A stretch of 20,335 nt of DNA. It comes from a virus. The notes beneath the pieces are model-generated. The model did no database searches. It was not told where the DNA came from and saw nothing but the letters and a program-made list of their open reading frames with translations. This document shows positions 10,420 to 20,335 of the stretch, piece by piece (positions within the stretch are counted from its first letter, which is position 1; each line of letters starts with the position of its first letter). Location: the IMG/VR virus record IMGVR_UViG_3300025769_001111, positions 1 through 20,335 of that record; one strand, given 5' to 3'. The position numbers and the translations under genes were made by a program.

Positions 10420-10926
10420 TCATTTTTTCTGTTTCTCCGGTTCAATTTCAATCATGCTTGCATGCATGCGGTCCGTTTGATTAGTTATCAAAGGGTCCGG
10501 GCTTTTATTACTAGCTTTTTTGGCGTCTATTATGTTTACGTTTGACGGCGGTTTGATTCTATCCTTAGCATCATTAATTATCTGATTTAAATTAATAGTA
10601 GTACTAGGTTCCTGTCTATCGCTCCATTGGTCCGGAGCTCGATTTTTCAAAAAAAAGATGGCGCTAGTTTCCTTTCCGCTCATTGCATTGTCAAAAAGTT
10701 TAGAGCTAACAGCATTGATTGCTTTTACTCTTCCCTTTTTTATTGCATGTTCAAAATGCTTATTAGCCCTTTTTTCTCTAGTTATTGTGCTTTGACTTAC
10801 ACCTAGCAGCAATGCGATCTGTTTTTCACTTAAACCATTCCCGGCGGCTTCCATGATCATTTTATAATCATCCTCGGTCAAGTCTTTAAGCTTTCTTTTT
10901 CTTCCGCTTGTGATTTCCTTGCTCAT
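10420..10926 (-). CDS. terS: Terminase small subunit
   Basis: The 168 residues have an N-terminal helix-turn-helix (about 15-55: LTEDDYKMIMEAAGNGLSEK, then QIALLLGVSQSTITREK). A helical oligomerisation region follows, containing KGRVKAINAVSSKLFDNAMS and GKETSAIFFLKNRAPDQWSD. The segment A-I-F-x-L-K-N-R-x-P-x-x-W+D/E is the hallmark of small terminase or phBC6A51-like proteins. The C-terminus is polar and probably disordered, ending in a basic EKQKK. It recognises the packaging site and guides TerL. The gene directly precedes terL. AAAGGA sits very close to the ATG (two or three bases), unusually short spacing. A (GCAT)n word at about 10460 lies in its C-terminal coding part. Confidence 0.85.
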   Translation of the reverse strand: MSKEITSGRKRKLKDLTEDDYKMIMEAAGNGLSEKQIALLLGVSQSTITREKRANKHFEHAIKKGRVKAINAVSSKLFDNAMSGKETSAIFFLKNRAPDQWSDRQEPSTTINLNQIINDAKDRIKPPSNVNIIDAKKASNKSPDPLITNQTDRMHASMIEIEPEKQKK

Positions 10927-10974: not shown

Positions 10975-11014
10975 TTCACAAATATGTTGACATATATATA
11001 ATATAGTATACTAT
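10975..11014 (+). promoter_or_regulatory. Promoter pair with 12-bp palindromic operator before plus-strand operon
   Basis: Two overlapping sigma70-like promoters point right. TTCACA (10975-10980), 16 bases and TATAAT (10997-11002) is close to consensus. TTGACA (10987-10992), 16 bases and TACTAT (11009-11014) has a perfect -35. Positions 11003-11014 form a perfect palindrome, ATAGTATACTAT, covering the second -10 and lying just after the first. That is the expected place for a repressor or activator site. The divergent 117-bp gap also faces the small terminase gene, for which I see only weak minus-strand promoter matches. Confidence 0.6.
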
Positions 11015-11043
11015 GTACATATAAACATTAAGGGAGCAAACAA

Positions 11044-11307
11044 ATGCAAACATTAAAACAAGAAGAGATTAGCAAATATTTTGAGCCGGCTGAAACTATG
11101 TCAATAGATATCACAGAAGAAGAAAGCCTTATTCTTTGGAATCTTTTAGAAAAACAGTTTCATTCATGCCAAACAAAATTCGATCACAACAAGATCACTT
11201 TGTTATTTGCAAAAATTATGCATAAATCATGCGAATTCGCCGGGACATTGGAAGAAGATGAAACACTTAAAAAAATGTATTGGAGATTAATAGCGGATTA
11301 TTCATAA
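11044..11307 (+). CDS. 87-aa hypothetical, first gene of plus-strand operon
   Basis: The 87 residues start MQTLKQEEISKYFEPAETMS. A long acidic helical stretch follows (DITEEESLILWNLLEKQFHS), then a Leu-rich helix (KITLLFAKIMHKSCEFAG) and an aromatic end (KKMYWRLIADYS). No domain is recognised and no membrane segment is seen. AAGGGAGCA lies at 11030-11038, five bases before the ATG, the first of a series of nearly identical ribosome sites. It is the first gene after the promoter and the only one separated from the rest by a large stem-loop, so it may be expressed more than the others. An early-phase role such as host takeover or counter-defence is possible but unsupported. Confidence 0.7.
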   Translation: MQTLKQEEISKYFEPAETMSIDITEEESLILWNLLEKQFHSCQTKFDHNKITLLFAKIMHKSCEFAGTLEEDETLKKMYWRLIADYS

Positions 11308-11311
11308 CCTA

Positions 11312-11353
11312 ACCACCATAAATAAGCCCCGTTTTATATGGGGCTTTGGTGGT
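11312..11353 (+). terminator. Two-tier stem-loop between first and second genes of the operon
   Basis: AAGCCCC (11324-11330) pairs with GGGGCTT (11340-11346) around a nine-base loop. Outside this, ACCACCA (11312-11318) pairs with TGGTGGT (11347-11353), with a five-base bulge TAAAT on the 5' side only. All 14 base pairs are perfect. The 3' side continues TATAACCATTTTATTTT, so there is no immediate U-tract. It could be an attenuator, partial terminator, RNase processing site or mRNA-stabilising end for the first gene. A strong intrinsic terminator is less likely. Confidence 0.5.
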
Positions 11354-11389
11354 ATAACCATTTTATTTTATATAAGGGAGCAAATAAAA

Positions 11390-11791
11390 ATGAAAATATC
11401 AGAAATGAAAAAAATAGTTAGAGACGGATATGACAGGTTATATTGTTTAACTTATCACCATCCGGATTATAGAGATAAGATTGTTAATCTTGAAAAGAAA
11501 TCCGTTAAAGATTGGCGAGAATCTACAGCCTACACATGGGATGTATCTGTTAAATGGCATCTAACCATTACCGAGGAAGCAAAATTCTTTGCTATCAAGC
11601 ACATATTAGAAGCCATGAAAAATGGACCTATTGATGTTAAATCAATAATCCATCTAAAAGAGTCTTATGTGTTGGCACATTCTGTTGTTGCTAATTACCA
11701 TGAAGAGCTAGAAAAAGCATTCCAGGGCTTTGACTTTGAATCATTTGATCAACTATCAAATAGTGATCTACATACAGATGTGGCGGCGTAA
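11390..11791 (+). CDS. 133-aa hypothetical protein
   Basis: This is the largest gene of the plus-strand operon at 133 residues. It begins MKISEMKKIVRDGYDRLYCL, has a His/Tyr-rich patch (TYHHPDYRDK), a Trp-containing stretch (VKDWRESTAYTWDVSVKWHL), and then mainly helices (ITEEAKFFAIKHILEAMKNG, and SYVLAHSVVANYHEELEKAF). The tail is acidic. I recognise no family. Two His residues in HHPDY plus a later AHS could be metal or catalytic ligands, but no known motif is complete. AAGGGAGCA at 11374-11382 gives it a strong ribosome site. Position in a block of small early-type genes is the only clue to role. Confidence 0.7.
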   Translation: MKISEMKKIVRDGYDRLYCLTYHHPDYRDKIVNLEKKSVKDWRESTAYTWDVSVKWHLTITEEAKFFAIKHILEAMKNGPIDVKSIIHLKESYVLAHSVVANYHEELEKAFQGFDFESFDQLSNSDLHTDVAA

Positions 11792-11793
11792 TA

Positions 11794-11946
11794 ATGAAAA
11801 AGCGCACATATAAAACCACTGTCAACGGCGTAAAGATTGAAAGCCATAAATTTAATACTTTTCTAGCGCTGATTAAATACGCTATGAAATGCCAACATAA
11901 CAACAAGCTGAGAAGCGATCAATTAAACTTTTTAAAAGGAGCATAA
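11794..11946 (+). CDS. 50-aa hypothetical protein
   Basis: The gene starts two bases after the previous stop at ATG 11794 and encodes 50 residues: MKKRTYKTTVNGVKIESHKF, then NTFLALIKYAMKCQHNNKLR and SDQLNFLKGA. A short beta-hairpin (TYKTTVNGVKIESHKF) followed by one helix is predicted; the protein is basic. The last codons (AAA-GGA-GCA-TAA) are also the ribosome site of the next gene, so the C-terminal K-G-A is probably fixed by regulatory rather than protein constraint. No own Shine-Dalgarno sequence is visible; coupling with the preceding gene is likely. Confidence 0.62.
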   Translation: MKKRTYKTTVNGVKIESHKFNTFLALIKYAMKCQHNNKLRSDQLNFLKGA

Positions 11947-11948
11947 AA

Positions 11949-12299
11949 ATGAAAACATTAATTAAAAGCCAGGTTATAAAATGTGAAACAGTAGACGGCG
12001 GCGGAATTCTTGTAGCTTTAGGGAATGATAGGTTTGCTAAGGATTTTGAAGAATTTGCTGACAATGATTATTGCAGCACCTTTAATAAGGATATGTTTGC
12101 TATTGATTGCGAGGTGACTAATTTTTTTGAATTTGGCGAATATGAAGAAATAAAAGAGCCTAGCGATTTAATAGGTAAGTCTGTTTATATACATGATGGA
12201 CCCCATGATGGACCGCCAACATGTGACGGCGATACCATAATAAACATTCAACTTATACAAGATGCTGAAAAATATTATAACTATTCAAAGGGAGCATAA
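11949..12299 (+). CDS. 116-aa acidic hypothetical protein
   Basis: The 116 residues begin MKTLIKSQVIKCETVDGGGI and contain an acidic middle (DFEEFADNDYCSTFNKDM and EFGEYEEIKEPSDLIGK). An unusual duplicated HDGPHDGPP motif follows at about 82-90, with CDGD shortly after. Overall charge is strongly negative. It ends YSKGA because the next ribosome site (AAGGGAGCA) is embedded in the final codons. Small acidic phage proteins may mimic DNA, but the HDGP repeat and several Cys could equally mark a metal site. No family is recognised. Confidence 0.68.
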   Translation: MKTLIKSQVIKCETVDGGGILVALGNDRFAKDFEEFADNDYCSTFNKDMFAIDCEVTNFFEFGEYEEIKEPSDLIGKSVYIHDGPHDGPPTCDGDTIINIQLIQDAEKYYNYSKGA

Positions 12300-12301
12300 A
12301 A

Positions 12302-12514
12302 ATGGAAAATTATATTGATATATATACTTGCGAGTATGTAACAAGCCATATAACCGGGGAATCTTCCTTAAAGATATCCGGATATATTCATTTCGATGGG
12401 ATAGAAATAGACCATAGTAACAATTATATAGGCTATGAATTAGAAGAAGCACGGGCAGCTTTTAAGAGTGAACTGAGAAGAAAAAAGAAAGAATATTTAA
12501 AAGGGAGCGAATAA
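12302..12514 (+). CDS. 70-aa hypothetical protein
   Basis: The gene encodes 70 residues: MENYIDIYTCEYVTSHITGE, then SSLKISGYIHFDGIEIDHSN, then a helical part YELEEARAAFKSELRRKKKE. The first 45 residues look like a four-strand sheet and the last 25 like one charged helix. No family is recognised. The last codons read LKGSE, again because the AAGGGAGCG ribosome block of the next gene overlaps the 3' end. It has its own ribosome block at 12288-12296. Confidence 0.68.
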   Translation: MENYIDIYTCEYVTSHITGESSLKISGYIHFDGIEIDHSNNYIGYELEEARAAFKSELRRKKKEYLKGSE

Positions 12515-12697
12515 ATGACTAATGAAGTAACCGTACACATTGACATTACCTTAGTTAATGATGGTAAAGAAATATTTAAAACCAATGCAGCATCATGCTT
12601 TAGTGATAGAACTAATCTAAAACTTCTTGAAGAGATAGACAATTATTATTATAAAAAAATGGAGCGAAAAAACTATGCAAAATATTACAGAAGATGA
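12515..12697 (+). CDS. 60-aa hypothetical protein
   Basis: The gene starts directly after the previous stop and encodes 60 residues: MTNEVTVHIDITLVNDGKEI, then FKTNAASCFSDRTNLKLLEE, and IDNYYYKKMERKNYAKYYRR. Two strands (VTVHIDITLV, KEIFKTNA) are followed by a helix and a Tyr/Lys/Arg-rich tail. Its arrangement resembles the preceding 70-aa protein, but I see no real sequence similarity. The ribosome block AAGGGAGCG is at 12501-12509. The 3' end overlaps the next gene by 23 bases. Confidence 0.62.
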   Translation: MTNEVTVHIDITLVNDGKEIFKTNAASCFSDRTNLKLLEEIDNYYYKKMERKNYAKYYRR

Positions 12698-12893
12698 AAA
12701 GTATCTAATAAACACATATAAAGAAGAGGACATTTTAACGGATGTATGGGATACATTAATGAAAAATACCATGTATAAGCCGTTAAATTTCTCAAAGATC
12801 AAAGAAGATTGCTTTTTGGACCTGGATAATAAATTAATTGAGTTAGGTAATTTTAAACTTTCAATTAAAAGGATTAATGAAGATGAAATGTAA
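12675..12893 (+). CDS. 72-aa acidic hypothetical protein
   Basis: The gene encodes 72 residues: MQNITEDEKYLINTYKEEDI, then LTDVWDTLMKNTMYKPLNFS and KIKEDCFLDLDNKLIELGNF. It is acidic and mainly helical with no known motif. The start overlaps the previous gene by 23 bases, and an ATGGAGCG (12659-12666) degenerate version of the shared ribosome block stands nine bases upstream, supporting the chosen ATG. The end overlaps the next gene by up to 17 bases. Confidence 0.62.
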   Translation: MQNITEDEKYLINTYKEEDILTDVWDTLMKNTMYKPLNFSKIKEDCFLDLDNKLIELGNFKLSIKRINEDEM

Positions 12894-13071
12894 AAAGATT
12901 TATATTAATAGAAAAGACAACTATGCAAACATTGAAACAGTTGATGAATTTGCAGAGGGGCGAAAGTACGCAAAAGAAATGCTTAATGAGTATCGTTTAA
13001 GCGATCCTTATGCACATTATTATATTAGTCAAAGACCATGTAAGGATTGGCTAGAAGATTTAAGAGACTAA
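12877..13071 (+). CDS. 64-aa phage protein with AKEMLNEYR...YYISQRPCKDW pattern
   Basis: The 64 residues contain NIETVDEFAEGRKYAKEMLN, then EYRLSDPYAHYYISQRPCKDW near the C-terminus. The layout, a regulatory-looking helix A-x-x-M/L-L-x-E-Y+ followed by Y-Y-x-S-x-R-x-C/T-K/R-x-W, matches a small protein type that I remember from many phage early regions, with unknown function. ATG 12877 and ATG 12883 are both possible starts; the longer is listed. The gene overlaps its upstream neighbour, consistent with coupled translation. It is the only member of this operon with a pattern I think is widespread. Confidence 0.7.
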   Translation: MKMKCKKIYINRKDNYANIETVDEFAEGRKYAKEMLNEYRLSDPYAHYYISQRPCKDWLEDLRD

Positions 13072-13076
13072 TAAAA

Positions 13077-13331
13077 ATGAAGTTTAATTATAAATACTTT
13101 GATGAACTAGGATTGACTAAAAAAGGCTATGAGAAGCTTACACAAGCCATAGAAACGGTTTTTTTAGAAGTCTTTACTAATGGGCTAACAGAAGAAGAAT
13201 TTTTAAAGTTTATAGAATTCTTAGAAAAGCAACAAAAGGGATTTTTGGGCATAGATGAAGAATTTTCAGAATTACCATTAATGTTTAAAAGTTATGTTAA
13301 TAAGTTATTTAATACCATCGAGGAACTCTAA
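13077..13331 (+). CDS. 84-aa hypothetical helical protein
   Basis: The start is placed at ATG 13077, six bases after the previous stop, rather than further upstream inside that gene. The 84 residues begin MKFNYKYFDELGLTKKGYEK. They are then helical with repeated Phe/Leu heptads (LTQAIETVFLEVFTNGLTEE, FLKFIEFLEKQQKGFLGIDE). No family is recognised and no membrane segment is present despite many Phe. Only one base separates its stop from the next ATG. There is no AAGGGAGC block in front of it; from this gene onward the operon appears to rely on coupling. Confidence 0.66.
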   Translation: MKFNYKYFDELGLTKKGYEKLTQAIETVFLEVFTNGLTEEEFLKFIEFLEKQQKGFLGIDEEFSELPLMFKSYVNKLFNTIEEL

Positions 13332-13526
13332 ATGGATATACGAAGAATAATGTTCAGCGATAGCGAAGAAGTGCAGCTTTTTTTAGATATCTTGCACGAT
13401 TACCGCCTAGGATATTTATATAAGAAATTTGAAGCTAAAACACTAACCGAAGAAGAGCAAAAGGAATTTAAGCTGCTTAAAAAGGTTTTAGAAAATATAG
13501 CTTTTAGTTATCAGCTAAAAGAATGA
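13332..13526 (+). CDS. 64-aa hypothetical helical protein
   Basis: The gene starts at the base following the previous stop and encodes 64 residues: MDIRRIMFSDSEEVQLFLDI, then LHDYRLGYLYKKFEAKTLTE and EEQKEFKLLKKVLENIAFSY. It is mostly helix with alternating acidic and basic residues, and has no Cys, His cluster or known motif. It overlaps the next gene by four bases (ATGA). The function is unknown; size and composition resemble many small early phage proteins that bind host enzymes, though nothing here proves that. Confidence 0.66.
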   Translation: MDIRRIMFSDSEEVQLFLDILHDYRLGYLYKKFEAKTLTEEEQKEFKLLKKVLENIAFSYQLKE

Positions 13527-13777
13527 CGTGTTTTTATAAGTCCGATTTACTCAATAAGGTTATTAAATGGGAATGGTCCGATAAGGACAAGCAATATTGG
13601 CTAACGTGGATACCAAAGAAAAGAGACCTAATAATACTAACTGAGCTAAACAAAGAAGATACTAAAACCGCTAAAAATGAATTATGGGACAACCTACAAG
13701 AAGCCCTAAACGATACTAAAGAACTAATAAGGAAAAAAAGGAAGTTAAATTATGCAAGAAGAAAACAACAAATTTAA
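13523..13777 (+). CDS. 84-aa Trp-rich hypothetical protein
   Basis: The start overlaps the preceding stop as ATGA. The 84 residues begin MTCFYKSDLLNKVIKWEWSD and continue KDKQYWLTWIPKKRDLIIL. A long amphipathic helix follows (AKNELWDNLQEALNDTKELI), and the end is very basic (RKKRKLNYARRKQQI). Five Trp in 84 residues is unusual for a small phage protein. The basic tail could bind nucleic acid. The 3' end overlaps the next gene by 26 bases. No family is recognised. Confidence 0.66.
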   Translation: MTCFYKSDLLNKVIKWEWSDKDKQYWLTWIPKKRDLIILTELNKEDTKTAKNELWDNLQEALNDTKELIRKKRKLNYARRKQQI

Positions 13778-13913
13778 ACATCAAGATGACTATTTCCAAA
13801 GGCAATTAGAAAAAGGCTTGCAAAGGGTTACTGTTTGGATTCCTAAAGGAACTAAACACCTGGTGCAGCTTTTTGCTAAAAACCTAAGAAAGGGCAACAA
13901 AGACAAGCTCTAA
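13752..13913 (+). CDS. 53-aa hypothetical, last gene of plus-strand operon
   Basis: The reading frame from ATG 13752 encodes 53 residues: MQEENNKFKHQDDYFQRQLE, then KGLQRVTVWIPKGTKHLVQL and FAKNLRKGNKDKL. The R-V-T-V-W-I-P segment followed by a helix resembles small phage ribbon-helix-helix-like proteins (R-V-x-V-x-V-P...L...A). That would make it a DNA-binding candidate. It ends at TAA 13911-13913, whose bases are shared with the TAG of the convergent winged-helix gene on the other strand. No terminator hairpin was found between the two operons. Confidence 0.62.
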   Translation: MQEENNKFKHQDDYFQRQLEKGLQRVTVWIPKGTKHLVQLFAKNLRKGNKDKL

Positions 13914-14344
13914 CGCTCTTCTTTCTCTATAAGGTACCCTAAGCCTACTAATAAGATATGCTTTCTAGTAGCGCCTAGGGACTTCTTAATAACTCGCCTT
14001 TCCCATTCCGGGACCAACCATATATATTTATGCTTCTGTAATGAGTCTATAGCCTTTCTAACACTACCACGGGATAAGCCCGTCATCTTGCCTAAATAAC
14101 TAAAACTATCCCTACAAGAAAAACTTGCAGCCCTATGCCTTTCCGTAATAGCCCAAAGTATTATTTTATCCCTACTACTTATATCGCCTTGCCCGCATGC
14201 ATGCCTAAACCACTTCCATGCATAGCCTTTTAACTTCTTATAATCGCTCATCCGTGCATGCACGTTAACATGCACGCATGCTGAATGCCGTGGGTCCTGT
14301 ATTTCCCCGGCTTCAATCCACCAAAAACGATCTTCTAATTCCAT
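13910..14344 (-). CDS. Winged-helix DNA-binding protein (replication initiator or regulator)
   Basis: The 144-residue protein has a Trp-rich N-terminal half (FWWIEAGEI, then KGYAWKWFRHACG). A helix-turn-helix follows at about 75-110: SFSCRDSFSYLGKMTGLSRG, SVRKAIDSLQKHKYI, with the wing LVPEWERRVIKK. A bacterial-like HTH after a YLGKMTGLSRGSVRKAIDSL pattern is typical of phage replication-initiation or plasmid RepA-like proteins and MarR-type regulators. The gene lies 80 bases from the 23-bp iterons, so it is the natural candidate to bind them. AAAGG lies six to seven bases before the ATG. A (GCAT)n word is at 14195-14204. Confidence 0.7.
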   Translation of the reverse strand: MELEDRFWWIEAGEIQDPRHSACVHVNVHARMSDYKKLKGYAWKWFRHACGQGDISSRDKIILWAITERHRAASFSCRDSFSYLGKMTGLSRGSVRKAIDSLQKHKYIWLVPEWERRVIKKSLGATRKHILLVGLGYLIEKEER

Positions 14345-16360: not shown

Positions 16361-16760
16361 CCAAGCTCTCCGAAAGGTCTTCTATGCTTCCGTTTTGGGC
16401 TTGGAGAGTTACATATTTAATGTAATTTAAGCAAATACTAGCAGCCACGTCTTCCCAATCCTCTTTGGACCAATCGGACAAGCTATAACTTTTATTATTT
16501 TTAGCTACTTCTAATATGCGTTCTTTGCTTTTGGTAAGTGAATGCGTTACGGCTGTTTTGTTTAATGTAATCGCTGTCAACTTTCTCTCTCCTCGTTCAA
16601 ATGCATGCATGTGTTTGTTAGTACAAAACGTGTATGCAGTTTCTTTTTCAGCATCTAATTTAAGTAAAGGCCCAGCCCCTAGTCCACAATATGCACAAAG
16701 ACTAGGCCTATTTGCGTGTAATTTATTAAAAGGGAATATTTTCGTCTGTGATCTCAGCAC
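16347..16760 (-). CDS. Cys-rich, zinc-ribbon-like small protein (DUF6511-like)
   Basis: The start is GTG 16760, preceded by GAGG nine bases away; no ATG is available before the first Cys pair. The 137 residues contain CAYCGLG near 22-28 and FCTNKHMHAFERG near 45-57, which can form a small Cys/His zinc site. A helical C-terminal half follows with WSKEDWEDVAASICLNYIKY. A Trp-x-x-x-[DE]-W followed by a helix resembles what I remember as DUF6511, usually in replication clusters. It overlaps both neighbours (35 bases with the SSB-like gene, 14 with the helicase-primase), so all three should be made together. It may supply the zinc-binding part that the primase lacks; this is inference. Confidence 0.65.
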   Translation of the reverse strand: MLRSQTKIFPFNKLHANRPSLCAYCGLGAGPLLKLDAEKETAYTFCTNKHMHAFERGERKLTAITLNKTAVTHSLTKSKERILEVAKNNKSYSLSDWSKEDWEDVAASICLNYIKYVTLQAQNGSIEDLSESLDGLQ

Positions 16761-17205
16761 TTTCCTTTACCTCTGGCGCTTTAACTGCATCCGCAACGGG
16801 ACGTATGTTAGAACATGATCGAGATTTACCGGAATAGCCTAAGTCTATATCCAAATATCCGTTTTCTTTCATTACTAGATCAACATTAATTGATTTACCA
16901 AGAAATTGATCGCTGCTGCTAACTGAATTAATACCCATAGCATTACCAATAGCACTAACAACTGTTTGTGTTTTGATTAATGCGCTGTCATCGCCTTTAT
17001 CAGCAAGCAAGATACCAACTTCCAACTGACTATTCTCAACTCTAAACTTGAGCTTATGCCATTGAAAGTCTTTGTAAGCATCCTTTTGGCTAACGATACC
17101 TTCATCGCAACCAACGTATTCAACATTATGTTTTCCTGGTAATACTGAATCCGGAAAGTTTTCCTTACTAAATTCAGTATTGTTTACTTGTGTATAATCA
17201 ACCAT
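16726..17205 (-). CDS. Single-stranded DNA-binding protein-like (OB fold, DUF669 type)
   Basis: The 159-residue protein has a strand-rich core (about 20-125: VLPGKHNVEYVGCDEGIVSQ, FQWHKLKFRVENSQLEVGIL, then FLGKSINVDLVMKENGYLDI). A disordered acidic tail ends in DENIPF. That tail closely copies the D-D-D-I-P-F tip by which bacterial SSB recruits partner enzymes. Phage DUF669-type proteins fold as OB proteins and bind ssDNA. The gene is next to Sak4-like, exonuclease and helicase-primase genes. AAGGAG with eight-base spacing precedes ATG 17205. Whether the DENIPF tail contacts host SSB partners or the phage Sak4 and exonuclease cannot be read here. Confidence 0.8.
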   Translation of the reverse strand: MVDYTQVNNTEFSKENFPDSVLPGKHNVEYVGCDEGIVSQKDAYKDFQWHKLKFRVENSQLEVGILLADKGDDSALIKTQTVVSAIGNAMGINSVSSSDQFLGKSINVDLVMKENGYLDIDLGYSGKSRSCSNIRPVADAVKAPEVKESAEITDENIPF

Positions 17206-17233: not shown

Positions 17234-17410
17234 TTAACCTGGGTCGTATGTATTGTAGTCTTCTAGCCATTCAACCATTTCGTCTAGCTCTCCAATAACA
17301 TTTGACAACCAATGACTTACCCCTTCAATCCTATGATGGTCTTCAGGGTCCTCAGATAATTGGCGGTCTAAAATAGACCGAGCCAATTTAACTTCATCAA
17401 CTAGATTCAT
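17234..17410 (-). CDS. 58-aa acidic helical protein, function unknown
   Basis: I start at ATG 17410, 14 bases inside the Sak4-like gene, giving MNLVDEVKLARSILDRQLSE, then DPEDHHRIEGVSHWLSNVIG and ELDEMVEWLEDYNTYDPG. A GTG at 17443 would extend it by 11 residues. It is acidic and helical with no membrane segment. Lying between the Sak4-like recombinase and the SSB-like gene, it may be an accessory recombination protein, but no family is recognised. Confidence 0.62.
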   Translation of the reverse strand: MNLVDEVKLARSILDRQLSEDPEDHHRIEGVSHWLSNVIGELDEMVEWLEDYNTYDPG

Positions 17411-18182
17411 CTTTAGCTTTTGCTTTAGACTCACTTGCTTCACCGATGATTGCTGATCTGATAACAGGCCAATCCATATCTAAGACTTCCGGTAGGTTGT
17501 ATCTATTTTTTGCAACCCAAGCCGGCTTCCATGTGGTATGACATATTCTTCTTTTGCTTGTTCGTGTTTTACTAACAAGTTTCCCGTTAGAACCTTTTTC
17601 TTGTGCTACGCCTGTTTCATAGGCTGCATAAAAACAAAAGTCAACATGCTCAAGCATTAACTCACCAACTTTTTTATCAAGCTTTAGCTCCCAACGGTCA
17701 TAACTTTCTCCTTCAGGTGGCTCAAATCTTTTTACTTGTGAATGAGCTAATTGTAGGATTGTCATTTTTCTTTCATCCCTAATTCTATTTAAGAGATCAA
17801 TATACTGTCTCCAAAACTTAAGAGATTCTGTGAAGCCCTTGCCGTAGCCTGCGCTCTCAATTGAGGCATAACCCATCTCTTTACATGTCTTGTCATGGCA
17901 AAGAGGCTGCAACCAATCTAAAGAATCTACAACAAGACTCTTATAATCGTGCTTTTCAGTTCTAATCTTTTCTAGGTTAGCCATAAAGTCATCCCAAGTA
18001 GTATTTTGTTCAGGCTTAATAGCATCAACTTGTATTTTTCCTAAGCCAGGCTCAGTTAACATAAAGATAGGTTTCGGCAAAGTAGAACCTAAGTGTGTTT
18101 TACCTACGCCGGGCCCGCCGTGCACAATACCAAGTGGCGGTCTTAATTCATGCTTGGTTGTTACGATATCTGCTAGTGACAT
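17397..18182 (-). CDS. Sak4-like ATP-binding single-strand annealing recombinase
   Basis: The 261 residues form a RecA-like core of the AAA_24 type. Walker A is HGGPGVGKTHL at 21-31, Walker B is SLVVDSLDWL at about 82-91, and TILQLAHSQVKRF at about 150-162 follows as the likely sensor segment. A polar C-terminus ends KAKAKDESS. Proteins of this family (often annotated phage nucleotide-binding protein) include Sak4, a single-strand annealing protein that works with SSB and exonuclease. The neighbouring Cas4-like exonuclease and SSB-like protein fit exactly. AAGGAG lies eight bases before the ATG, and the preceding stop overlaps the start (TAATG). The Sak4 name is by family resemblance only. 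Confidence 0.8.
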   Translation of the reverse strand: MSLADIVTTKHELRPPLGIVHGGPGVGKTHLGSTLPKPIFMLTEPGLGKIQVDAIKPEQNTTWDDFMANLEKIRTEKHDYKSLVVDSLDWLQPLCHDKTCKEMGYASIESAGYGKGFTESLKFWRQYIDLLNRIRDERKMTILQLAHSQVKRFEPPEGESYDRWELKLDKKVGELMLEHVDFCFYAAYETGVAQEKGSNGKLVSKTRTSKRRICHTTWKPAWVAKNRYNLPEVLDMDWPVIRSAIIGEASESKAKAKDESS

Positions 18183-18472
18183 TATTTGCTCTCCTTGATA
18201 ATTTTAGTTTCACCTTCTAATGATTCTTTAAGTTGATTAGTAATGATTTGTAAATACAACTCACACTTCTCAATCTCTAAGTTCATCTTTGCATCCGCAT
18301 CGGCTTTTTGATTTAAGAATTGTATTCTTTGATTTTCAACAAAGCCACGCTTATTGAATAATACAGATTGCTCCTCATTGAGTTCGCTTTCTTTATATTC
18401 TTTACCATCGGGACCAAAAGAAAAGGTTCTCTCCTCTTGCTCTTGCTCCACCTTCTTATTTTCTTCAGTCAT
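18182..18472 (-). CDS. DUF6447-like small coiled-coil protein
   Basis: The start is ATG 18472 with AAGGAG seven bases before it; an earlier in-frame start would lie deep in the exonuclease gene. The 96 residues begin with charged linkers (MTEENKKVEQEQEERTFSFG). Next comes PDGKEYKESELNEEQSVLFN, then a helical coiled coil (KRGFVENQRIQFLNQKADAD, AKMNLEIEKCELYLQIITNQ). The pattern D-G-x-E-Y...E-L-x-E-E-x-x...L...I-Q-x-L-x-x-x-x-A/E is one I remember as DUF6447, common in phage recombination clusters. Position between exonuclease and Sak4-like genes suggests a partner for one of them. Confidence 0.68.
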   Translation of the reverse strand: MTEENKKVEQEQEERTFSFGPDGKEYKESELNEEQSVLFNKRGFVENQRIQFLNQKADADAKMNLEIEKCELYLQIITNQLKESLEGETKIIKESK

Positions 18473-19202
18473 TTTCTTGCTCCTTTTGGTATTCACTGAA
18501 TTTTTCGCACACTGTTTTTGCATTGCATAATTTACAATGATCCCCCGGTACGAATTTAGGGGATTCTACAAGTGTGGCTTCGATTGCTGGTTTTAGCGTT
18601 TCTTCACCCCAACTTGCAAGATTATGTGCTGTAATGTCCCACGATCTTATAGGACCATCTTTGTGCCAACCTCTAGGTTGCACAATCGTTAGCTGTATGG
18701 TTTTACTCATGTCTGTGTAGCGATGCAATGCTCCAAGCCCATAAATCATCAATTGTGGATTATGTTCTACATCTATTGGAAACTTACCACTTTTTAAATC
18801 TATAACTTCCATCCGGTGATCACCAATAATAACTGCATCGGCTGTACCCCAACACTCGTCTGTAATGTGATCAATCGTAAATCTTTGTTCAATCAATAAT
18901 TTACCGTTTAATTCTTCAGTTCTTTTTCTAACATAATCAACATAGATGTTTGCAGTTTCTATCATTTCTTCATCTATCTCAAAAGTATGACCGTCAATAC
19001 TTTCTTCTCTACCAAGAAAATATGACTCCGGTGTCATACCATCAAGCCTATCTTTAAGTGTGACTTCAACAATGTTATGGATGGCTGTACCTACTGCGCC
19101 AGGTAAACCAATTTGGTATTCAATATCACGATTCATCATAGGTGCTGCCGAGCAAATCATGTTTGTTTTCGCCGAGCTAGGCGCAAAAAAAGCGTGTGCC
19201 AT
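18465..19202 (-). CDS. Cas4/DUF2800-like PD-(D/E)XK exonuclease with Fe-S cysteines
   Basis: The 245 residues show a PD-(D/E)XK nuclease. There is a His in GTAIHNIVE (H42), then CWGTADAVI (D122), then MEVIDLKSGK (D135 and K137). NPQLMIYGLGA (Q150, Y154) is the motif of the RecB-nuclease and Cas4 branch. One Cys near the N-terminus (C17) and three near the C-terminus in CKLCNAKTVC (C223, C226, C232) have the spacing of the 4Fe-4S cluster in Cas4 and AddB. It would resect 5' ends to supply single strands to Sak4-like annealing. The stop and start of neighbours overlap its ends (TAATG upstream, 8 bases downstream). Its polarity cannot be told from sequence. Confidence 0.83.
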   Translation of the reverse strand: MAHAFFAPSSAKTNMICSAAPMMNRDIEYQIGLPGAVGTAIHNIVEVTLKDRLDGMTPESYFLGREESIDGHTFEIDEEMIETANIYVDYVRKRTEELNGKLLIEQRFTIDHITDECWGTADAVIIGDHRMEVIDLKSGKFPIDVEHNPQLMIYGLGALHRYTDMSKTIQLTIVQPRGWHKDGPIRSWDITAHNLASWGEETLKPAIEATLVESPKFVPGDHCKLCNAKTVCEKFSEYQKEQEND

Positions 19203-19473: not shown

Positions 19474-19743
19474 ATGAGTATAGATAATATTACGCCAAAA
19501 GAATGGAACAAGGCTAGGAAAGATGTTAGTTATGACCCGGTTCTAAAGCCTGAACACTACAACAAAGGTGATGTAGAAAGTTGGGACATAATCAAACAAC
19601 AAGTCGATGATTGGCCCTCCTATCTTGAAGCAAACGTACTGAAATATATTTTACGGTACAAGTGGAAGGATAGTAATTTACAAGACCTGCGTAAATGTAA
19701 GGTCTATTTAGAAAGACTCATCGAACATTACGAGGAGTTGTAA
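19474..19743 (+). CDS. DUF3310 protein (nucleotide kinase-like)
   Basis: The 89 residues hold the DUF3310 pattern: YDPVLKPEHYNKGDVESWDI, then FLE-like SYLEANVLKYILRYKWKD, then LQDLRKCKVYLERLIEHYEE. The key string P-x-H-Y...E-x-x-D/W...G/A-N-x-L/V-K-Y-x-L/I-R-Y-x-x-K...D-L-x-K-x-x-x-Y-L-x-x-L is characteristic. The family is common in phages of many hosts and sometimes labelled nucleotide kinase, but no kinase P-loop is present here and the role is not settled. It is the first of two genes pointing away from the replication operon, and AAGGAG with five-base spacing precedes it. Confidence 0.85.
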   Translation: MSIDNITPKEWNKARKDVSYDPVLKPEHYNKGDVESWDIIKQQVDDWPSYLEANVLKYILRYKWKDSNLQDLRKCKVYLERLIEHYEEL

Positions 19744-19754
19744 CGGAGAAAATT

Positions 19755-19958
19755 ATGAATTTTGCTGACTTTCAAGACCCATTACTTGAAAGAGCCGGGA
19801 AAAAAGCTATCTATGTAGATAGAGCACTGGTTCGTGAATTCAAAAAATTCTGTATTAGGAATAATAAAAGTTCTTCAAGTGTTGCTGAATATTTAATCAA
19901 TTTAGGTATTTACACACCTGATAACGAAAAAGTATCGCTTGATATAGAAAACGTCTAA
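19755..19958 (+). CDS. Possible ribbon-helix-helix DNA-binding protein
   Basis: The 67 residues contain a short strand followed by two helices: KKAIYVDRALVREFKKFCIR, then NNKSSSSVAEYLINLGIYT. That is the outline of ribbon-helix-helix (CopG/Arc-like) proteins, with I-x-V as the strand and the second helix S-S-x-x-x-E-Y-L. The N-terminal 17 residues are linker. The stop is directly followed by the stop of the integrase on the other strand. It could regulate the overlapping promoters upstream or integrase expression. The RHH call rests on pattern alone. Confidence 0.6.
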   Translation: MNFADFQDPLLERAGKKAIYVDRALVREFKKFCIRNNKSSSSVAEYLINLGIYTPDNEKVSLDIENV

Positions 19959-20335
19959 CTAAGCACTCATAATTAGTTTTTGTAGGTGCTTACCGATTTT
20001 TTGTGCGTTCTCTTCCGCCCTGCATGCATGCACATGTGCATATCTTTGTGTTGTCGCAATATCCCTATGACCCAATAAATTACCAACCTCTGACAGATTA
20101 ACGTTCTCCAGGGCCCAGGATGCATAGGAATGTCTTAAATCATGCAAGCGTAAGTCTTCGCAATCAGCCTCTTTTCTGATTGTATTCCATAACTTTTTAG
20201 GTGTTTTGATGCCGGTGATAGTAGAGTGTCGCTTCGGCAAGCTCCGCAAAATTTCAAGGAGCAAAGGTGTTAGATATAGATTACGATTCTCACCAAAGCG
20301 ATCTGTCTTGTGCTCCCTTATTATAATCTTATTAT
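19959..20335 (-). CDS. int: Tyrosine integrase, C-terminal part (N-terminus beyond window)
   Basis: The frame is open from 19959 to the right edge, so only the last 124 residues are present; the TTG at 20264 is not a true start. Visible catalytic elements are the Lys in EHKTDRFGENRNLYLTPL, the H-x-x-R box in LRLHDLRHSYASWALENVN, and the second His plus Tyr in NLLGHRDIATTQRYAHVHA. The first catalytic Arg should lie upstream, outside the window. The enzyme recombines phage and host attachment sites, showing a temperate lifestyle or descent. The C-terminus contains a long TGCATGCATGCA word at about 20021-20032. No att site could be identified. Its stop abuts that of the convergent 67-aa gene. 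Confidence 0.9.
   Translation of the reverse strand, partial: NKIIIREHKTDRFGENRNLYLTPLLLEILRSLPKRHSTITGIKTPKKLWNTIRKEADCEDLRLHDLRHSYASWALENVNLSEVGNLLGHRDIATTQRYAHVHACRAEENAQKIGKHLQKLIMSA

Follow-up and report, generated by a model that had tools for sequence, protein, structure and literature searches.

Small-gene blocks in tailed phages

Tailed phages carry morons, accessory genes that have their own promoter and terminator, lie between conserved genes and deviate from them in base composition. The block described here, at positions 11044-13913 of IMG/VR virus record IMGVR_UViG_3300025769_001111 (the whole 20,335-base stretch is referred to as the window), differs from a moron in being an entire cassette operon in a permanent slot rather than a single inserted gene. 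It is probably a hypervariable early accessory operon of exchangeable cassettes, whose fixed position is the slot that separates the terminase small subunit gene (terS) from the replication initiator gene; both of these lie on the other strand. In cluster K mycobacteriophages, a repeated start-associated sequence (SAS) with the consensus GGGATAGGAGCCC, conserved beyond the Shine-Dalgarno (SD) motif, is found just ahead of the start codons of many small variable genes, and a 17-bp imperfect inverted repeat is found upstream of a subset of the sites (extended SAS, ESAS) (PMC3203893). ESAS was later recognised to contain a SigA-like promoter, and 25 of the 66 Adephagia genes tested proved toxic or inhibitory (PMC11373665). 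The window too has a repeat that is conserved beyond the SD core before several starts (six sites), and in both systems the elements are linked to different gene families in different genomes. However, the repeat reads GGGATAGGAGCCC there and DGGAGCRWANAA here, the hosts and phages are others, and in place of the 17-bp imperfect inverted repeat the window has a nested, covarying hairpin of other sequence and geometry just after a stop codon, where TGGTATAAC matches an extended -10 element and the -35 is not conserved. Because both the sequence and the inverted-repeat geometry differ, the block is not a member of the SAS/ESAS system, although by analogy it appears to work like one.

The nin region of lambdoid phages, close to the replication genes, is a non-essential mosaic array of small, tightly packed genes, with Red/Rad52-like mosaicism (PMC3945230, PMC2327257). 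Packed small mosaic genes near replication genes and a phage-encoded annealase are found here as well, but the block runs opposite to both the replication and the late genes, the annealase is of the Sak4 type, and no Pfam, PHROG or NCBIfam match to nin genes (ninB/orf, ninG/rap and others) was obtained among the block's proteins searched. Marine phages of the Skadi/HTVC010P type also have a hypervariable region, and Skadi-11 carries a distant homologue of gene 2 of the block beside its terminase gene; the published Skadi region, however, is related to tail fibres and lectins (PMC10504331) and is not an early small-gene block. As to integrons, the 3' edge of the hairpin element, TATAACC, does not by eye fit the attC core GTTRRRY (no dedicated attC or IntI search was made), and the only integrase in the window is a phage-type fragment.

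Layout of the block and selection on its genes

Twelve plus-strand open reading frames (ORFs) of 50-133 aa tile positions 11044-13913 with short gaps or overlaps, whereas the neighbours on both sides are all on the minus strand, the block being flanked by terS (10420-10926) and by the gene for a replication-initiator-like winged-helix protein (13910-14344). GC content is 0.31 in the block versus 0.39-0.42 in the large genes for terL, portal and primase, and AT skew and GC skew both flip across it. Thus, the packed small genes facing opposite-strand neighbours and the AT-richness that an earlier note had described from the bare sequence were both confirmed. Gene 12 and the initiator gene converge with a 4-base overlap (13910-13913), and no terminator was found between them.

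The closest divergent relative, L003, is a contig from another metagenome, with a terL 99% identical to that of the window. Pooled over the eight genes common to both, the ratio of non-synonymous to synonymous substitution rates (dN/dS) is 0.09 (49 synonymous changes in 352 sites and 22 non-synonymous changes in 1523 sites), and for gene 4 it ranges from 0.16 to 0.28 in pairs with the window in which dS is unsaturated, far from the value near 1 that the earlier note had set as the sign of frames that are not conserved. Because these ratios are low, the twelve frames are, on this comparison of sequences, real genes under purifying selection. Another relative, L002, equals the window across the compared genes; it is probably the same virus and so adds no information.

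Gene turnover in related loci

A terminase search yielded 80 related loci, and the slot from terS to the replication initiator could be delimited in 34 of them. The islands that fill it measure 0.9-3.6 kb, are coded mainly opposite to the strand of terS and the initiator and have a GC content below the locus mean in all but one case. Their 278 ORFs fall into 139 clusters, 87 of which are singletons, and the commonest families (C0, C1, C2, C3 and C5) are all small. Gene-order comparison, which the earlier note had proposed, thus recovered the same slot and its mainly opposite-strand, AT-rich operon, with the content almost wholly replaced. Fixed slot, variable content and deviating base composition are all present, as for an accessory variable island, and near-complete turnover of content is the usual signature of accessory early genes for host interaction. 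In four loci (L004, L005, L040 and L055), the terS-adjacent part of the slot reads on the terS strand; a ParB-like 'IIAGHGRVQAAQKL' motif and perhaps a DNA methylase were seen there by eye.

L003 retains genes 1, 2, 3, 5 and 9-12 at 96-100%, but has an extra gene between genes 2 and 3, two others in place of gene 4, two others in place of genes 6-8, and one added after gene 12. All edges of similarity between the two lie at a start or a stop, that is, at gene junctions: a few bases past the ATG of gene 4, where gene 5 starts, immediately behind the gene 6 ATG, on the ATG of gene 9 and near the end of gene 12. Across up to 48 related islands (298 distinct edge contexts), a start codon lies within 15 nt of 76% of the left edges and 63% of the right ones, compared with 13% of random positions. 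Left edges cluster between -11 and 0, right ones at +2, just beyond the ATG. The effect size counts for more here than the p-value, since related islands are non-independent. Proteins of 172-177 aa that are related to each other were observed inside swapped cassettes of two distant islands (L003:7083-7601 and L078:7454-7987), and the one in L003 matches phrog_10310 and phrog_5162.

A repeated leader before the starts

The sequence DGGAGCRWANAA occurs six times in the window (0.25 expected), each time directly upstream of a start on the plus strand: before gene 1 (11032-11043), gene 2 (11376-11387), gene 4 (11937-11948), gene 5 (12290-12301), gene 6 (12503-12514) and gene 7 (12660-12671). It is absent before the 26 listed minus-strand genes and before the two other plus-strand genes; as the pattern was derived from its six sites, only this absence elsewhere is independent. 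The stereotyped leader, AAAGGGAGCATAAAAATG and variants, reaches past the SD core and often overlaps the stop of the preceding gene, which is why upstream proteins end in KGA or KGSE. The shared ribosome sites of the earlier note were therefore borne out in a stronger form than claimed. In the relatives, leaders are similar in spirit, not identical: an exact 10-mer is found in at least three leaders in only 3 of the 34 islands, and 20 of 380 island proteins end in EVA because of junctions of the GAGGTAGCGTAATG type.

A covarying hairpin with a promoter-like edge

Genes 1 and 2 are separated by a nested hairpin (11312-11359, plus strand), which we call type A, with the outer stem ACCAC/GTGGT and a GC-rich inner stem. 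Its folding energy is -25 kcal/mol (z-score -5.5 to -5.6), and nested hairpins had z-scores of -3.8 to -7.9 in 15 of 15 cases. The 3' edge of the element is formed by TGGTATAAC, which resembles an extended -10 site (11350-11358, plus strand); its TATAA lies outside the stem and hardly varies, although it is not paired. A type A element is present in a dozen or so other related-island loci, where the inner stems are wholly different while pairing is kept. It usually stands between the first and the second gene of the island, though the gene pair differs, and it is single per operon in the group of the window. Since the MAFFT alignment misplaced the outer stem, covariation was counted on hand-written arms of 12 elements. 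Of 11 pairs, 10 are standard in every element, and changes on both sides occur in 10 of 11. An Rfam search returned no family.

Scanning the viral collection with a pattern of the element produced 23 matches, where a rough estimate predicts about 7. In all cases with readable flanking ORFs, the matches lie 4-19 nt past a stop and 18-29 nt ahead of the next start. Most of the 23 carry a terminase of the window type. In five of the carriers (L104, L108, L112, L124 and L125), no homologue of the tested genes of this phage was detected; the primase of L104 is 47% identical to those of pelagiphages HTVC104P and HTVC103P. The hairpin with TGGTATAAC shows the same stop and start spacing at L104:1964-2008, L124:10882-10925 and L125:1329-1372. 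A second kind of nested hairpin (type B), with an A/T-rich outer stem (AATCTTA/TAAGATT or ACATA/TATGT) and the inner stem AAGCGCA...TGCGCTT, was observed in the islands of L051, L052, L069 and L072-L079, where it follows up to three successive cassettes per operon and a similar leader comes next.

Upstream of gene 1, a putative operon promoter consists of two overlapping sigma70-like sites on the plus strand (10975-11014), which include the palindrome ATAGTATACTAT. TTCACA-16-TATAAT at 10975-11002 has 11 of 12 matches and TTGACA-16-TACTAT at 10987-11014 has 10 of 12. Among the relatives, a site with at least 10 of 12 matches precedes the first gene in 29%, as against 12% of shuffles. The regulated-looking promoter of the earlier note holds as far as such a site does stand before gene 1, but promoter-like matches are not enriched across the region (17 found, 19 expected).

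Recombination genes

On the minus strand, the window encodes a Sak4-like single-strand annealing recombinase (17397-18182; AAA_24, E 2e-41; phrog_124, E 7e-36) and, by family matches, a DUF2800/PD-(D/E)XK exonuclease (18465-19202). A 159-aa protein (16726-17205, minus strand) found no family match in domain and PHROG searches; it is a probable single-strand binding protein (SSB), because it ends in DENIPF, an SSB-like tail read from the sequence. The Sak4 protein of HK620 acts as an annealase that its SSB stimulates (PMC5928155), and short diverged homologies can be recombined by phage annealases (PMC3945230). The Sak4-like protein is thus a candidate agent of cassette exchange, with the DUF2800 exonuclease as its candidate partner, and these genes could tie the exchange to a possible mechanism, which they do not demonstrate.

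Proposed mode of action and alternative explanations

In the proposed scheme, transcription of the operon, presumably early, would start from the promoter at 10975-11014 and proceed through gene 1, the punctuation and genes 2-12, each cassette being a small ORF that starts within the stereotyped leader. We infer that the hairpin and TGGTATAAC serve as punctuation, that is, as a leaky terminator of the first cassette and an extended -10 promoter from which host RNA polymerase would transcribe the rest, so that gene 1 would be dosed apart from genes 2-12. With expression signals in both leader and punctuation, any cassette joined there would be expressed at once, and the exonuclease and the Sak4 annealase that the phage itself encodes could produce the joins at these places. 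The cargo would most likely be host-takeover and counter-defence proteins. The earlier note had suggested a block for host takeover, anti-defence or superinfection functions; a small-gene operon under selection, on its own strand and in a slot of high turnover, fits that suggestion, but none of the twelve proteins resembles a characterised inhibitor. An anti-defence or takeover role may be proposed, and what bears on it in the relatives is an MT-A70 DNA methyltransferase (L078) and an HNH/endonuclease VII-type gene (L032), found by searching 112 island representatives. One PHROG match to the Srd/decoy-of-sigma70 family was also obtained among these representatives, although its source protein was not located with three candidate sets.

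Several observations weigh against this scheme. The supposed second promoter lacks a conserved -35, the U-tract of the hairpin is short (UUU followed by G or C), so that termination is perhaps weak, and promoter-like scores before gene 1 are barely above those of shuffles over all relatives. Matches to characterised anti-defence or takeover inhibitors were absent among the twelve by sequence, with the fold compared for gene 4 only. The breakpoint contexts are not fully independent, some relatives being close, and breaks at gene ends are also expected from random joins followed by selection for intact genes. On an alternative view, the block would be an ordinary accessory region, shaped by random illegitimate recombination and selection for intact genes, whose leader does no more than serve ribosome binding well and whose hairpin is simply the intrinsic terminator of gene 1. 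Selection alone would yield breakpoints at gene ends, overlaps of SD and stop are frequent in tight operons, and the sharing of a 10-mer by leaders is confined to the three islands mentioned. We nevertheless regard this view as somewhat unlikely, because the leader of the window exceeds the SD core and is found nowhere else in the genome fragment, the TATAA past the hairpin is nearly invariant though unpaired, and the element stands at a fixed distance from the next start and reappears in phages that seem unrelated.

The conserved TATAA is also what RNA processing would not need. Sites of the RNase III type lie between the early genes of T7, and the nested hairpins might be such processing or stability sites rather than a terminator with a promoter; the compound intergenic stems, of which operons in the L052 and L074 group have up to three (type B), and the weak U-tracts would agree with this, which we consider unlikely all the same. 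That the leader and the hairpin-promoter form a cassette-exchange platform, whose junctions are kept both as expression signals and as short homologies, we hold to be rather doubtful. Slimmer still, in our estimate, is the chance that the prophage expresses the block as a lysogeny or immunity region, with functions such as repressor, antitoxins and superinfection exclusion. In favour of this, the integrase fragment and the excisionase-like gene point to a temperate lifestyle, the window yielded no other repressor, the product of gene 12 resembles small DNA-binding or antitoxin-like proteins, and one-helix membrane peptides (C1 and C3) occur in the islands of several relatives; domain searches, however, revealed no repressor-type helix-turn-helix among the twelve proteins. 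As the window is a fragment, a repressor may lie outside it.

The individual genes

Searches of Pfam, PHROGs and NCBIfam with all or ten of the twelve proteins gave no match at E <0.001, except that gene 12 matches phrog_11804 (annotated 'unknown function') at E 1e-4; the lack of recognisable domains reported in the earlier note was thus upheld. Profile comparison between island clusters produced no convincing further relatives. All twelve genes lie on the plus strand. Gene 1 (11044-11307, 87 aa) is identical in L003, and the first gene differs in most relatives. Gene 2 (11390-11791, 133 aa) encodes a helical protein with distant homologues in L099-L103 and, at 27-31% identity, in pelagiphage Skadi-11, where the homologue belongs to an opposite-strand block beside the terminase gene; no other compared gene of the partial Skadi-11 genome matches. 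Its structure model has a predicted local distance difference test score (pLDDT) of 54.6, too poor for a fold search. Gene 3 (11794-11946, 50 aa) encodes at its 3' end both KGA and the SD of gene 4. Gene 4 (11949-12299, 116 aa), in whose place two other genes stand in L003, codes for an alpha/beta protein with homologues 44-59% identical (L092 and L094-L098); its model (pLDDT 80.2) has no match in PDB and matches one unnamed viral prediction (E 1.6e-3, TM 0.62). For genes 2 and 4, scans with the single proteins returned only near-identical contigs, and alignments that included distant homologues reached further.

Gene 5 (12302-12514, 70 aa) is followed by three genes that are replaced in L003, gene 6 (12515-12697, 60 aa), gene 7 (12675-12893, 72 aa) and gene 8 (12877-13071, 64 aa). 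Gene 9 (13077-13331, 84 aa) most likely starts at ATG 13077 rather than at TTG 13047. Gene 10 (13332-13526, 64 aa) resembles an ORF in L029 and L032 (tblastn E 0.001) that by eye belongs to island family C6, the profile comparison with C6 being weak, and it is followed by gene 11 (13523-13777, 84 aa). Gene 12 (13752-13913, 53 aa) belongs to the 'GLxRxxxWIP' family (C5), whose members close the island, or nearly so, on the initiator side in several relatives; its product is possibly a DNA-binding or antitoxin-like regulator. No match to gene 4 or gene 12 was found among annotated phage records at the thresholds used. The C1 and C3 products (46 and 33 aa), recurrent one-helix membrane peptides, were observed to be among the most widespread families of one branch (L004, L015, L019-L023, L036-L038 and others) and are candidates for superinfection exclusion or holin-like roles.

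Phage type and host

The window contains genes for terminase, portal, capsid protein and primase-helicase, together with the phage-type integrase fragment (19959-20333) and the excisionase-like gene, on account of which the phage is probably temperate. It is a marine, podovirus-like phage. Hints as to the host come from links to pelagiphages and from one relative that sits within a contig of a Pelagibacter metagenome-assembled genome, but the GC content of this phage, about 0.38, is above what we expect of SAR11 phages. A search for tRNA genes in the window returned none. A second short plus-strand block (19474-19958), adjoining the integrase fragment, encodes a DUF3310 protein (E 1.5e-16) and a 67-aa protein, and a DUF3310-like match was seen between the primase and terS genes in L014 and L018.

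Implications

As a phage region, the block is of an expected kind. What merits follow-up is the covarying punctuation element common to apparently unrelated phages, together with the breakpoints at start codons; with the start-associated sequence, the hairpin and promoter-like element and the exchange of cassettes at junctions, the architecture goes beyond what was first read from the sequence. The slot is bounded and easily recognised in an abundant marine phage group, where it gathers small genes under selection, and the leader with the hairpin and TGGTATAAC provides a sequence handle by which such slots may be found in other phages. If leader and punctuation did form an exchange platform, exonuclease, Sak4 and SSB would swap single small genes among phages sharing a host, making up an integron-like reservoir without a dedicated integrase. 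If joins are truly made there by the phage recombinase, the trading of single early genes between phages would become directly testable.

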